Source: Maritimibacter harenae (GTDB lineage Bacteria; Pseudomonadota; Alphaproteobacteria; Rhodobacterales; Rhodobacteraceae). From it: 64,000 bases of DNA. The notes under the pieces were generated by a model that saw only the letters and a program-made list of their open reading frames with translations, ran no database searches and was not told where the DNA came from. This document shows positions 4,351-9,246 of this stretch, in pieces. Numbering within the stretch: position 1 is the stretch's first letter; each line of letters opens with the position of its first letter. Made by a program: the position numbers and the translations under genes. The stretch covers positions 58,599 to 122,598 of the forward strand of contig NZ_WTUX01000010.1 of assembly GCF_009882975.1 (NCBI RefSeq), read 5' to 3'.

Positions 4351-4712
4351 ATTGTCTTTCCGCGGTGCATACAGGCACCGCTGTCGGGCGCATCCGCGCC
4401 CTCATCGCTGGGTCACACCGCCCTCGCGACACGGCTCATGCCTGTCACCGTCCGGCGCGAAGCCCCCCGCGTGAAATGGGAACCTGTATCGGGGCCCTTG
4501 GCCCGCCTCGTCCCGACCCTGCTGCATCTTCGTCGTTGGTCGTTGTCGTGCAGCGGCGGCTCACGCGGCCGCGTTCGGGACTTGGCGCATATCGGCCCTC
4601 TCGGCCGTCCTGTCAATGGCCGGTCTTCGCTTTGGTGATCACCGTGCCCTTTCCCCCGGCGCGCTGATCCTGTATCAGCCTCCCGTCTTTGACACCGATT
4701 AAGGAGAGCCAC
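4351..4712. other. Intergenic region between helicase and asd
   Basis: This 362-bp divergent intergenic region shows no convincing gene. It contains a perfect 10-bp palindrome GGTGATCACC (4634-4643) and a GCTGAT-N5-ATCAGC inverted repeat (4663-4679) shortly before asd. Either could be an operator or a chance palindrome. The asd ribosome-binding site AAGGAG is at 4701. Confidence 0.5.
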
Positions 4713-5735
4713 ATGGGCTACAAGGTCGTCGTCTGCGGCGCCACGGGTAACGTGGGCCGCGAAATGCTCAACATCCTGGCCGAGCGCCAGTTCCCCGTGG
4801 ACGAGGTCGCCGCGCTCGCATCGCGCCGGTCCTTGGGCACCGAGGTGAGCTTTGGCGACAAGACGCTCAAGACCCAGGATCTCGACACGTTCGATTTCAC
4901 CGGCTGGGACATGGCGCTTTTCGCGATCGGCTCGGACGCCACGAAGAAGTATGCACCCATCGCCGCCAAGGCGGGCTGCGTGGTGATCGACAACTCGTCG
5001 CTCTACCGCTACGACCCGGACGTGCCGCTGATCGTGCCGGAGTGCAATCCGGACGCCATCCACGGCTATTCCAAGAAGAACATCATCGCGAACCCGAACT
5101 GCTCGACCGCGCAGATGGTCGTGGCGCTGAAGCCGCTGCACGAGCGCGCGAAGATCAAGCGCGTCGTGGTGTCGACCTACCAGTCGGTCTCGGGCTCCGG
5201 CAAGGACGCGATGGACGAACTGTGGGACCAGACCAAGGGCATGTTCGTGCCGGGCCAGGAGGTCGAACCGAAGGCCTACCCGAAACAGATCGCCTTCAAC
5301 GTGATCCCGCAGATCGACGTGTTCATGGATTCGGGCGACACGAAGGAAGAGTGGAAGATGGTCACGGAGACGAAGAAGATCGTCGATCCGTCCATCAAGG
5401 TCACCGCCACCTGCGTGCGCGTCCCGGTCTTCGTGGGCCACGCGGAATCGATCAACATCGAGACCGAGGAATTCCTCGACGAGGACGAGGCGCGGGAGAT
5501 CCTGCGCCAGGCGCCGGGCCTGCTGGTCGTCGACAAGCGCGAACCGGGCGGCTACGTGACGCCGGTGGAATGCGTGGGCGATTTCGCCACCTTCATCTCG
5601 CGTATCCGCCAGGACGTGACCATCGACAACGGTCTGAACTTCTGGTGCGTTTCGGACAACCTGCGCAAGGGCGCGGCGCTGAACGCGGTGCAGATCGCCG
5701 AGCTGCTGGGCCGCGAGGTTCTGAAGAAGGGCTGA
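4713..5735 (+). CDS. asd: Aspartate-semialdehyde dehydrogenase
   Basis: A 340-residue NADPH-dependent enzyme that reduces L-aspartyl-4-phosphate to L-aspartate-4-semialdehyde. This is the branch point towards lysine/diaminopimelate, threonine, methionine and isoleucine. The N-terminal nucleotide-binding motif GATGNVG is at 9-15, and the catalytic nucleophile is Cys130 in NPNCSTAQ. Length is normal for the family. I chose the ATG at 4713 because AAGGAG lies 8 nt upstream; a TTG at 4689 has no such site. It is followed by a hairpin with a T tract, so it is probably monocistronic. Confidence 0.95.
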   Translation: MGYKVVVCGATGNVGREMLNILAERQFPVDEVAALASRRSLGTEVSFGDKTLKTQDLDTFDFTGWDMALFAIGSDATKKYAPIAAKAGCVVIDNSSLYRYDPDVPLIVPECNPDAIHGYSKKNIIANPNCSTAQMVVALKPLHERAKIKRVVVSTYQSVSGSGKDAMDELWDQTKGMFVPGQEVEPKAYPKQIAFNVIPQIDVFMDSGDTKEEWKMVTETKKIVDPSIKVTATCVRVPVFVGHAESINIETEEFLDEDEAREILRQAPGLLVVDKREPGGYVTPVECVGDFATFISRIRQDVTIDNGLNFWCVSDNLRKGAALNAVQIAELLGREVLKKG

Positions 5736-5993: not shown

Positions 5994-7616
5994 ATGCGCG
6001 CCACCGTTTCCCTTGTCGCCCTGATCGCGGCCGGCCCGGCCCTGGCCGACACGTTCTATGCCCAGGCCCCGGTGGCCGAGGCTATGATCTACCCGGACGG
6101 AGCGACGCTCACGCTGCGCGCCGAGTTGGAGCTGCCGGCAGGCGAGCACACGCTGATGGTGCCCTACGCCAACCCGGAGCGTACCGGCAGTCTGCCCCGC
6201 ATTGCCGTCTCCGAGGGCGTCAGCATCGGCGCCCTGGGGTTCCGCCGCGGCGTGGTGGCCAATCCACGCGCGCTTTATTCCCCCGCACAGGCGGCGGCCG
6301 CGGCCGAACTGGACGCGGTCGAGGACCGGATCACGGCGCAGCGTGACGCCATCGCCGCGGCGCAGGTGGCACGCGACGCGCTGGAGGCGAAGCTCGCCTA
6401 CATCTCGTCCATCGCAGCGCCGGAGGGGGCCAGCACCGCGGAGATCCTCGAGATCGCCGACCTCGTCGCGGCCCAGACCGCCACGGCGCGCGCCGATCTC
6501 ATCGCCGCCGAGGCCGACCTGCGCCCGCTGGCCGAGGCGCTCGAGGACCTGGAGGCAGAGCGTGCCGCCGCGCAGGCCGCATTGGACCGCCTATCCCCGC
6601 CCGCCGCCGAGAACGACATGCTGACCATCGACATGACGGTGGCCGAGGCCGGACCGGTGGCGTTGGAACTGACCGAACAGAGCCGGTCCGCCGGATGGCG
6701 CGTGGATTACGACCTCGACCTCGACGCGGGCGAGATCGCGCTCGACCGGAAGCTGATCGTGCGTCAGCAGGACGGGCGCAGCTGGAGCGACGTGGCGCTC
6801 ACCCTGTCGACCGCGCGCCCGAGCGACCAGATCGCACCGAGCGAGGTCTACCCGGACCTTGCGGATATCTACGACCCCGAGACGCCGCGCCCGATGCCGC
6901 GCGAACCTATGGCCGAGGCGGACATGGTCGAAGAACGCGCCGCCGGGCTTGCCGTGGCGCCGGCCCCGATGGTCTCGGCGGGGCTCCAGGTCGACGGCTT
7001 GAACGTCTCCTACGTCTACCCCGAGCCCGTGACCATCGCCGCGGGCGAGACCGCCGAGCTCGCGCTCGACACCCTTACCATCCCGGCCACGCCCCGGATC
7101 GAGGCCGCCCCGCGCTGGGACGACACGGCGTTCCTCGTCGCAAGCTTCACCAACGACACCGGTGAGCCGATCCTGCCGGGCAGCGCGAGCCTCATGCGCG
7201 ACGGGCATTTCGTGGGGCGCACCGAGCTGCCGATGATCCCGGCGGGCGCGGATGAGGACCTGGCCTTCGGGCCCGTCGACTCGATCCGGCTCGAGACGAC
7301 GTTCCTGCGCAACGCGGAAGGAGACGCGGGACTGATCAACCGGTCGTCCACCCGGGTGCAGCAGATCACCTTCACGGTCGAGAACCTGTCGGACGACCAG
7401 CAGGACGTGCGCGCGCTTTTCCCGCTCACCTTCTCCGAGAAGGAGGCGCTCGAGGTCGACGTGACCGCGGTGCCCGCGCCGGACGAGACCGACATCGAGG
7501 ACCGGCGCGGCGTCTCCGCCTGGGATCTCGTGCTCGCGCCCGGCGAAACGCAGACGGTCGAGATCACCGTGGAACTCGACTGGCCCGAGGGGAAGGTCCT
7601 GAACTGGGCGCCGTGA
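5994..7616 (+). CDS. Secreted DUF4139/DUF4140 (mucoidy-inhibitor-A-like) protein
   Basis: A 540-residue protein with a clear signal peptide (residues 1-18, cleavage after GPALA-like sequence). It then has an N-terminal beta-rich DUF4140-like segment (about 25-110), an Ala-rich coiled coil (about 95-200), and a long beta-rich DUF4139 domain to the C terminus. Proteins of this architecture are found across bacteria, and the name mucoidy inhibitor A comes from a distant homologue; the biochemical role is unknown. The ATG at 5994 follows GAAAGGA, whereas upstream in-frame ATGs would bury the signal peptide. It is likely a periplasmic or surface protein. I am sure of the architecture and unsure of any function. 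Confidence 0.83.
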   Translation: MRATVSLVALIAAGPALADTFYAQAPVAEAMIYPDGATLTLRAELELPAGEHTLMVPYANPERTGSLPRIAVSEGVSIGALGFRRGVVANPRALYSPAQAAAAAELDAVEDRITAQRDAIAAAQVARDALEAKLAYISSIAAPEGASTAEILEIADLVAAQTATARADLIAAEADLRPLAEALEDLEAERAAAQAALDRLSPPAAENDMLTIDMTVAEAGPVALELTEQSRSAGWRVDYDLDLDAGEIALDRKLIVRQQDGRSWSDVALTLSTARPSDQIAPSEVYPDLADIYDPETPRPMPREPMAEADMVEERAAGLAVAPAPMVSAGLQVDGLNVSYVYPEPVTIAAGETAELALDTLTIPATPRIEAAPRWDDTAFLVASFTNDTGEPILPGSASLMRDGHFVGRTELPMIPAGADEDLAFGPVDSIRLETTFLRNAEGDAGLINRSSTRVQQITFTVENLSDDQQDVRALFPLTFSEKEALEVDVTAVPAPDETDIEDRRGVSAWDLVLAPGETQTVEITVELDWPEGKVLNWAP

Positions 7617-7844
7617 GCCGCGGGCCGCGACAGTTTTCCTAAAATCCTCCGCGCACGGCACGGTTTCGCCGCGGATCGGCGCGATTTGTGGCGAATTCCA
7701 TGCCGAGAGTCCCGGGGTCGGCCGCCAGCCGGCCCCGCGGCGAAGCCTGCATGCCCCCGAGGCACCTGCCGGAGAACCCGACGCTCCCCTATCGAACGCC
7801 CGCCGAGGGCCGCTTTCTTGGCATTGCACAAGGACAGGACCGTC

Positions 7845-8030
7845 ATGACCCGCAAGCTCATTCTTCTTCCCGGCCCCGGACCGGCCAATGCCAATGCGCC
7901 ACGGAGGTTCGACGTCACGCGCAAGGTCGTCGCGCTGGATATCGGTCCCGCGCGCCCCGGCGCCCGCCGCCGGGATCACCGCGTCGTCTTCGCCGCAGGC
8001 CTGGGTCGGGACACGGGCCACCCGGCCTGA
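7845..8030 (+). CDS. Small hypothetical protein (61 aa)
   Basis: A 61-residue ORF with a plausible AAGGACAGG site upstream of its ATG and strongly GC-biased third codon positions, as in neighbouring real genes. The product is basic and Arg/Pro-rich with a short hydrophobic N terminus (KLILLPGPGPANA). No family is recognised. It is the first of five small ORFs in the same orientation ending at a terminator near 9.2 kb. It may be spurious. Confidence 0.4.
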   Translation: MTRKLILLPGPGPANANAPRRFDVTRKVVALDIGPARPGARRRDHRVVFAAGLGRDTGHPA

Positions 8031-8055
8031 TCTGACTTTGCGAGGTGATTTGCCC

Positions 8056-8280
8056 ATGACCCCGGACCGCCCCAAGCCCGCGACTCCTCCGGCCGACCCG
8101 GACGAGCGCATCATCGACCGCATCCGCCGGGGGCGGCTCGCCGCGCTCGCCGTGTTGCCTGCCCGGCGCCCTGCCGGCGATCGGAAGGATCAATCCGCCC
8201 GTCCCACGTTCCACACCTGTCGGCAGCCGGAGCCGGGTCAATGGCCCATCCTGATCCTCACGAATCCCGTCGCCGCGTGA
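8056..8280 (+). CDS. Small hypothetical protein (74 aa)
   Basis: A 74-residue ORF starting 25 bp after the preceding small ORF, with GAGGTGA about 9 nt upstream of the ATG. Residues 16-33 (DPDERIIDRIRRGRLAAL) look like an amphipathic helix with coding-like codon use, while the second half is less convincing. No domain is recognised. Spacing suggests co-transcription with the 61-aa ORF. Confidence 0.42.
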   Translation: MTPDRPKPATPPADPDERIIDRIRRGRLAALAVLPARRPAGDRKDQSARPTFHTCRQPEPGQWPILILTNPVAA

Positions 8281-8499
8281 TTGCGACTCAGGTGTGGCGG
8301 GGGCCATCGCAGGGGCGCATTTCCGGAGGGCTGTTTCGGGGAAGTTGGGCGAAGGTGGGCCGGAAACGCGCAAAACCCGGTCTTTTTCCGTGTCGAAAGC
8401 GTGAAATGTCGCAAAGTTGCCCCATTTGGGCACGTTTCCCGCCCGAATCGCGGCGCAGCTTCGACCTTATCGGAACAGAATGAACAACCAGAGGTGAGA

Positions 8500-8676
8500 A
8501 TGGCTGCCACCACACTTACCCGGAAAGGCGAAACGGTCGTCCGCTTCCTGAAGCCCTTGAAAGGCATAGCGAATCGGGACCGCAACAAACGCCTCCCGGA
8601 GCTGTCCAGCGAAGATATCGAGGTCTTCTTCTCGAACGCGGACAGCAAGACCAAAACGAAAAAACACGCGGCCTGA
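8500..8676 (+). CDS. Small basic hypothetical protein (58 aa)
   Basis: A 58-residue protein with GAGGTGAGA just before the ATG. It has a basic N-terminal half (RKGETVVRFLKPLKG) and a lysine-rich tail (SKTKTKKHAA). It may bind nucleic acid or membrane, but that is inference from charge only. It is the first of three closely spaced short ORFs (58, 59 and 60 aa) that share size and orientation and are followed by a strong terminator, so they probably form one transcript. No known family is recognised. Confidence 0.55.
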   Translation: MAATTLTRKGETVVRFLKPLKGIANRDRNKRLPELSSEDIEVFFSNADSKTKTKKHAA

Positions 8677-8760
8677 CCACCGCCAAAAACAAGACTGACT
8701 GACCAACTCGAACACGGCCGAAAAAACAACAAAACGGCCACTGACCTGGGAACCAAAGAC

Positions 8761-8940
8761 ATGACCAACGTTATCGATTTCGCCGCTTACCGTGCCACCC
8801 GGACTCCGCGTGTCGTCACCCGCGACATGCATCACGACGCCCTGGTGTCGATGTCGAACCGCAAGCCGACGACCCGGTCGCGCTCCGAGGTTCCCCACGT
8901 GACGACCGACGTGCTGGCCACCACCGGCACGGCCTGCTGA
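8761..8940 (+). CDS. Small hypothetical protein (59 aa)
   Basis: A 59-residue ORF beginning MTNVIDFAAYRATRTPR, an opening seen in many small alphaproteobacterial proteins that start with a short IDF-A-YR helix. The rest is polar and Thr/Arg-rich. The site before the start is weak (GGGAACC). It sits 84 bp after the 58-aa gene and 64 bp before the 60-aa gene. The gap before it holds an A-rich segment flanked by GGCCG/CGGCC, possibly a small hairpin. Function unknown. Confidence 0.55.
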   Translation: MTNVIDFAAYRATRTPRVVTRDMHHDALVSMSNRKPTTRSRSEVPHVTTDVLATTGTAC

Positions 8941-9004
8941 GGCCAGCCCCCGAATACCCCGAACTCTACCCCAACCTGCCAACACCCCAATCCGGAGATA
9001 CCCC

Positions 9005-9187
9005 ATGACCCTTCTGGAAAAAGCCCGCGCTGGACGCAAAGCCGCTCTCGCTTCCCTGAACGAAAAGGCTGACACCGACACAGAGATGACGTCGATCTTC
9101 GACTTCGACTTCGAGCCGCCGGCCAAGCCGATCCCGTCGTTCACGTCGGTCCGCAGCGAGGGCAGCCTGGTACGCCTCGCGGCCTGA
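9005..9187 (+). CDS. Small hypothetical protein (60 aa)
   Basis: A 60-residue ORF with CGGAGA 7 nt upstream of the ATG. Residues 1-20 (TLLEKARAGRKAALASLNEK) form a likely amphipathic helix. The middle is acidic and aromatic (SIFDFDFEPPAKP). No recognised domain. It is the last of the small-gene series and ends 19 bp before a strong intrinsic terminator, which supports it being expressed. Confidence 0.58.
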   Translation: MTLLEKARAGRKAALASLNEKADTDTEMTSIFDFDFEPPAKPIPSFTSVRSEGSLVRLAA

Positions 9188-9206: not shown

Positions 9207-9246
9207 GACGGGCGCGGTTGTTCCCTCACCGCGCCCGTCTTGGTTT
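9207..9246 (+). terminator. Rho-independent terminator after the small-ORF cluster
   Basis: A perfect 12-bp GC-rich stem (9207-9218 with 9228-9239), a 9-nt loop and TTGGTTTT afterwards. It closes the plus-strand small-ORF series immediately before the convergent cdsA-like gene. Confidence 0.85.

Follow-up and report, generated by a model that had tools for sequence, protein, structure and literature searches.

The window, by which we mean the whole 64-kb stretch of DNA that was analysed, belongs to a Maritimibacter genome of 4.25 Mb in 70 contigs. The first-pass annotation had reported five plus-strand open reading frames (ORFs) of 61, 74, 58, 59 and 60 codons in a cluster, and all five, here named o1 to o5, were found at the place and with the length reported. 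With 58-74 codons they exceed the minimum length used by common gene finders, and the suggestion that standard annotation would overlook them is less well supported. Each ORF is preceded by a purine-rich stretch, the weakest being that of o4, which is consistent with the ribosome-binding sites that had been proposed, and none of the five matched a Pfam family at E values up to 1, in line with the earlier remark that no domain could be recognised. The features of the locus are the following, where A, B and C denote the protein families to which the ORFs are assigned below, and where the neighbouring genes were named from Pfam matches.

4689-5735: semialdehyde dehydrogenase (asd by inference)
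5994-7616: DUF4139/DUF4140 protein, directly upstream of the cluster
7678-7699, plus strand: less strongly conserved block ahead of o1, perhaps a second promoter site
7845-8030, plus strand: o1, 61 aa, family A, upstream copy, divergent in the window genome
8056-8280, plus strand: o2, 74 aa, family B, upstream copy, without the NVVSIFD stretch (in-frame alignment gap)
8422-8455, plus strand: conserved non-coding element of 34 bp, 78 nt upstream of o3, predicted promoter or regulator site
8500-8676, plus strand: o3, 58 aa, family C, best conserved of the five in the window genome
8716-8739, plus strand: small hairpin (GGCCG / CGGCC) with an A-rich loop, between o3 and o4
8761-8940, plus strand: o4, 59 aa, family A, downstream copy
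9005-9187, plus strand: o5, 60 aa, family B, downstream copy, C-terminal VRLAA
9207-9239, plus strand: intrinsic-terminator-like hairpin, 12-bp stem with arms 9207-9218 and 9228-9239
3' of the cluster, minus strand: CTP_transf_1 (cdsA-like) protein
after the cdsA-like protein, minus strand: acyltransferase (plsC-like)
after the plsC-like protein, minus strand: Pro_CA carbonic anhydrase (cah)

The hairpin just beyond the end of o5 had been described as a perfect terminator with a 12-bp stem, and indeed 12 of the 12 pairs form around a loop of 9 nt. Its predicted folding energy is -33.9 kcal/mol (z -6.8), and none of 200 shuffled sequences folded as well. A simple terminator scan did not list this hairpin, probably because its loop exceeds the limit of 8 nt used in that scan. 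When the stem was aligned across relatives, 91.6% of the cells were paired and both sides had changed in 6 of the 12 pairs, a number reached by 17 of 500 shuffles, while the covariation score was reached by none of the 500, a measure that may be inflated by the relatedness of the sequences.

Conservation was examined in eight Maritimibacter genomes, the window's own included, which gave seven relatives' loci for comparison, among them those of M. alkaliphilus HTCC2654 (L015) and M. dapengensis. With o5 as query a match was found in all eight genomes, its own counted. The order asd, DUF4139 protein, small ORFs, cdsA, plsC is kept in 7/7 relatives, and cah comes next after plsC in six of them, the seventh locus (L015) stopping short of cah. 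o2, o4 and o5 are present in 8/8 genomes, o2 of L020 being degenerate, and o1 and o3 in 7/8: o1 is missing from L020, and L021, an assembly that is 81% complete, keeps a 16-codon remnant of o3 with both ends. In the alignments of o1 to o5 homologous residues flank the gaps on both sides, and the gaps therefore keep the frame.

At the codon level, close pairs of genomes other than the window showed an excess of third-position differences in all five ORFs (P 2.6e-3 to 5.8e-9, for pooled pairs of which two have one genome in common). Counted by codon position (1/2/3), there were 56/40/77 differences for o1, 116/94/190 for o2, 40/44/89 for o3, 49/38/80 for o4 and 66/47/111 for o5. As a non-coding control the stretch ahead of o3 was used, and it lacked a third-position bias (P 0.66 and 0.88). 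The uncorrected pN/pS values of o1-o5 ranged from 0.36 to 0.67 between these close pairs, and from 0.41 to 0.61 for o1 among the close relatives themselves. The cluster exceeds chance, because relatives preserve the ORFs along with their order and the terminator, and o1 to o5 are almost certainly genuine, conserved protein-coding genes in an operon. The small-protein operon suggested before is thus backed by both synteny and codon-level conservation. A single shared transcript for all five ORFs is less well supported, since the strongly conserved non-coding element ahead of o3 argues that o1-o2 and o3-o4-o5 are probably two transcription units.

Judged from profile alignments, the five ORFs fall into three families: A (o1 and o4), B (o2 and o5) and C (o3). 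o1 and o4 aligned as paralogues (hhalign, 97.3%), as did o2 and o5 (98.6%), and no similarity was found between the o3 profile and those of o4 and o1 (0.4% and 5%). Family A is characterised by the motifs NVIxFP, NVVSxxxWK and RTxxGVFF, family B by the N-terminal helix KARxxRxxALxxL and by PxFxSxR, and family C by RLPxLxxxxIxxxF. The profiles of A and B have an NVVS-x-x-aromatic stretch in common (63%), which is too short to separate homology from convergence. Above cut-off, none of the three families matched anything in Pfam, NCBIfam, PADLOC or PHROGs, the last searched with the proteins of two relatives. When individual members of the alignments were compared with Pfam, only a few weak single-member matches appeared (best E 0.016). 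In NCBIfam the window's five proteins gave one match of 15.5 bits to an SCO5717-type model, for which the cut-off is 35, and a second search gave no match. A literature search, judged mostly on titles and the openings of abstracts, yielded no paper recognised as describing families A, B or C; an 18-residue Dinoroseobacter peptide is named in PMC7217052. The three families are therefore new to the protein-family libraries searched, and are now defined by motifs, genomic place and an upstream element.

The window's own copies are less constrained than the close relatives are among themselves, with the exception of o3. Against the relatives, pN/pS was 0.77-1.01 for o1, 0.64-0.89 for o2, 0.57-0.97 for o4 and 0.59-0.79 for o5, compared to 0.35-0.56 for o3. 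In comparisons with the window the codon-position signal was weak for o1, o2 and o5 (P 0.012, 0.041 and 0.097), and the differences in o1 were largest at position 1 instead of position 3 (73/42/67). The window branches are long in the trees of o1, o2 and o4. The window's o1 and o2, and to some extent its o4, diverge rapidly and the window lineage looks relaxed; the upstream pair o1-o2 looks dispensable and seems to drift in this genome, because the constraint on both ORFs is weak and the NVVSIFD stretch is gone from o2. These same long branches, high pN/pS values and the loss from o2 could also mean that the whole cassette is a decaying relic without function in the window genome, though functional in relatives. 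This is unlikely, as all five ORFs are intact, o3 is still conserved (pN/pS 0.35 and 0.46 against L015 and L016), o5 keeps six residues that are invariant in an alignment built without it, and the upstream element and terminator are intact as well.

Outside the genus, profiles were needed, because searching the whole family with the single sequences of o5 and o3 yielded next to no matches (2/149 and 1/149 genera, respectively, the own genome counted). The B profile matched in 20/149 genera, its own counted (six of these at E 0.001-0.01), and the A profile in 8/149, two of them weakly. The o3 profile gave two matches outside the genus, one inside a 210-aa frame (G089) and one in a frame with a stop (G001), and both were rejected as weak and unconvincing. 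Among 254 genomes of the order, extended profiles, used at E 0.001 and with the own genome counted, found B in 22 (17/104 genera) and A in 11 (9/104 genera). B is also present in 10 of the 11 A-bearing genomes, the A of the eleventh being weak, and in every locus examined that has a scored A, B follows directly and in the same order. By the measure of these searches the cassette is not a core function, since recognisable copies are missing from the greater part of the family.

The layout with five genes recurs in another genus, G371 (L112:517-8098), where asd, DUF4139, A-B-C-A-B, cdsA and plsC are found in the same order as in Maritimibacter, with over 1 kb separating asd from the DUF4139 protein. 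In the tree of B its first copy groups with o2 (support of the o2 group 0.995) and its second with o5, both nested inside these groups on long branches, and the tree of A gives no resolution. The same layout therefore suggests an arrangement older than the split between the genera. Shorter versions are asd-DUF4139-C-A-B-cah in G360, asd-C-A-B-cah in G228, C-A-B-cah in Psychromarinibacter sediminicola, and C-A-B at another location in G126. The C score is good in G360, as in G371, and weak in G126; the C of G228 and that of Psychromarinibacter were assigned by location and by a few residues. The arrangement asd-A-B is found in G031/G265 and G055/G245, where C was not detected.

In a survey of 80 further genera, 59 had a minus-strand cah no farther than about 4.4 kb from asd. 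Of these 59 intervals, which hold 82 candidate ORFs, 5 contain B-like ORFs, six in all, compared to none among 49 antisense candidates. The asd-cah neighbourhood is thus old, and small genes come and go inside it. In the genus of G026, two tandem B-like ORFs lie between asd and cah (L204:1262-1669), and A was not detected. A DUF4139/DUF4140 relative was present downstream of asd in 17 of the 80 genera, 16 of which lack a recognised small ORF, so that this protein is probably only a neighbour of the cassette. The neighbours of B genes outside asd-cah share no function that could be recognised by sequence alone, with one exception: an ABC-F-like ATPase, recognised by eye, lies near two of them. 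Plasmids contained no match for o5 or for the A and B of G031, and phages and viral contigs none for B. Because of these empty searches, and of the chromosomal place by asd, DUF4139 or cah, the Rhodobacteraceae cassette is probably inherited vertically.

The element ahead of o3 was described by a 34-column matrix built from the seven relatives with the window excluded. This matrix scored 46.2 bits at 8422-8455, and the runner-up site in the 64-kb window scored 6.8. Among 13 A-B loci of other genera, 6 had their best-scoring site upstream of the unit (within 400 nt, coding strand), two of the six belonging to one genus, and these six sites are positioned 80-84 nt before C and 261-267 nt before A. 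With 300 column-shuffled matrices the mean number of upstream sites among the 13 loci was 0.31 and the maximum 3. In the other 7/13 loci the element was not the best site upstream. The RNA of region 8420-8500 folds no better than shuffles (z +0.79). The element is probably a promoter or operator. The weaker block at 7678-7699 resembles the o3 element, and its spacing varies among relatives. A similar stretch was seen upstream of B in L080, from another genus, where A was not detected. An 11-bp direct repeat, CGAAT-N6-CGAAT, is visible upstream of both o1 and o3. An OmpR-type site was rejected, since upstream of o1 the spacing is 11 or 12, and so was a CcrM/GcrA site (the repeat can contain GANTC), since the o3 element of L019 lacks GANTC. 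The o1-type repeat pattern has only two near matches in its own genome, neither of which is at the cluster locus.

The proteins of the three families are predicted to be largely disordered. The AlphaFold model of o5, based on seven sequences, consists of a helix at residues 3-24 (pLDDT about 80) followed by coil (mean pLDDT 68.9), and that of o3, based on six sequences, has a helix at 37-52 and a weak hairpin, the rest being coil (mean pLDDT 68). Within the genus the isoelectric point is 11.4-12.0 for o1 (7/7), 9.7-11.9 for o2 (8/8) and 8.0-10.9 for o3 (seven sequences). The high values of o1, o2 and o3, the sizes of 57-89 aa, and the o3-o4 hairpin with its suggestion of regulation at the RNA level would suit small basic proteins associated with ribosomes or RNA, of the hibernation or stress type. 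Such a role appears improbable, as the pI of o4 and o5 in the genus varies between 5.2 and 10.2, the three profiles gave just two chance-level sequence matches in the PDB (E 0.72 and 0.75), neither of them ribosomal, and a Foldseek search of the PDB with the low-confidence o5 model returned no match. We consider it more likely that A, B and C act by binding a partner, since the proteins are mostly disordered and carry a few short motifs; A and B would probably bind one partner or each other.

The C-termini point to a second property. ClpXP recognises C-termini of the LAA or -AA type, its substrates with ssrA-like ends having this sequence at a free C-terminus. Within the genus, -AA ends were present in 8/8 o5, 7/7 o3, 5/8 o2, 3/8 o4 and 0/7 o1 proteins, compared to 2 in a control set of 52 long window ORFs chosen by base composition. 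In other genera, B adjacent to A ends in -AA in 14/14 cases, C in 3/5, and B without A in 3/8, L028 and L029 being left uncounted, neither of which ends in -AA. Candidate ORFs in the asd-cah intervals are not enriched in such ends (4/82 versus 1/49 antisense). The genome's own tmRNA (ssrA) tag is ANDNRAPVALAA, to which the VRLAA of o5 in the window fits, o2 (-VAA) and o3 (-HAA) partly, and o1 and o4 not. Because of this resemblance to the tag, the B and C members that end in -AA (RLAA in o5) would most likely be ClpXP-type substrates, and if so their action would be brief. Several A, B and C members end otherwise, and thus the degron reading does not fit all of them.

Taken together, the three families are arranged as C-A-B, accompanied in Maritimibacter, and in at least one genus besides, by an extra upstream A-B pair. 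The element ahead of o3 would be a regulated promoter, from which C, A and B may be made together under some condition. We tentatively propose, from motif conservation, disorder and C-termini, that these are co-expressed, partner-binding proteins, some with fast turnover. A fuller version, which we regard as doubtful, is an undescribed regulatory cassette of the Rhodobacteraceae, composed of three co-expressed disordered proteins, two with the common NVVS-x-x-aromatic motif and two often with ssrA-mimicking degrons, that would be switched by a dedicated conserved promoter element and would act in a short pulse on a single cellular partner, the binders competing or cooperating, the A-B pair having been duplicated and having diverged. 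If the degron reading is true, the families would form a natural set of self-limiting regulators.

Small and mostly basic proteins, of which B directly follows every scored A in constant order, which occur as a duplicated pair in two genera, and of which the A-adjacent B carries a degron-like -AA in 14/14 cases in other genera, are also what one might see if A and B formed a toxin-antitoxin-like module with one labile partner and C as an accessory regulator. We think this quite unlikely, since vertical inheritance is suggested by the chromosomal place in several genera and by the empty searches of plasmids for A and B and of phages and viral contigs for B, B occurs without A too, and no match to a toxin or antitoxin exceeded the cut-off in Pfam, NCBIfam or PADLOC. 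Compared to such a module, co-expressed partner-binding proteins remain our preferred reading.

The small hairpin between o3 and o4 has GGCC arms that are invariant in 8/8 genus genomes and a variable loop (z -2.06), and it is followed, before o4, by a CCTGGG stretch that is likewise invariant in 8/8, so a possible role in the translational control of o4 may be considered. That the conserved product is an RNA (a small RNA or attenuator), with the reading frames incidental, would account for this hairpin and the conserved terminator but is extremely unlikely, given the third-position substitutions favoured among relatives in all five ORFs, the protein similarity across genera at the profile level, and an Rfam search of the window that gave no match at gathering score.

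With respect to known systems, the cassette resembles the DUF1127 proteins of Alphaproteobacteria, which are small and occur as several paralogues per genome, Agrobacterium having three (PMC12501420). The Agrobacterium DUF1127 SDPs bind PhoR, so that binding to a protein partner has been shown for them (PMC12501420). None of the window's five proteins matched DUF1127 in Pfam at E values up to 1, and DUF1127 was not among the weak single-member matches of alignments A3, A6 and A7. To our knowledge, the C-A-B cassette with its -AA ends has no DUF1127 counterpart. Roseobacters are abundant in the sea, and few parts of their genomes are as sparsely annotated as the short proteins. A proteogenomic study of Ruegeria pomeroyi dealt with roseobacter genes missed by annotation and had HTCC2654 among the genomes compared (PMC3305630), but the 39 novel CDSs of its Table 1 are 93-590 aa long, and the term 'aspartate-semialdehyde' is absent from its main text. 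The five anonymous mini-ORFs can now be described as three families with a recurring genomic place, with orthologues in M. alkaliphilus HTCC2654. In that genome, the distance from the last small ORF to cdsA is about 1 kb (L015:5211-6256), longer than in the window.
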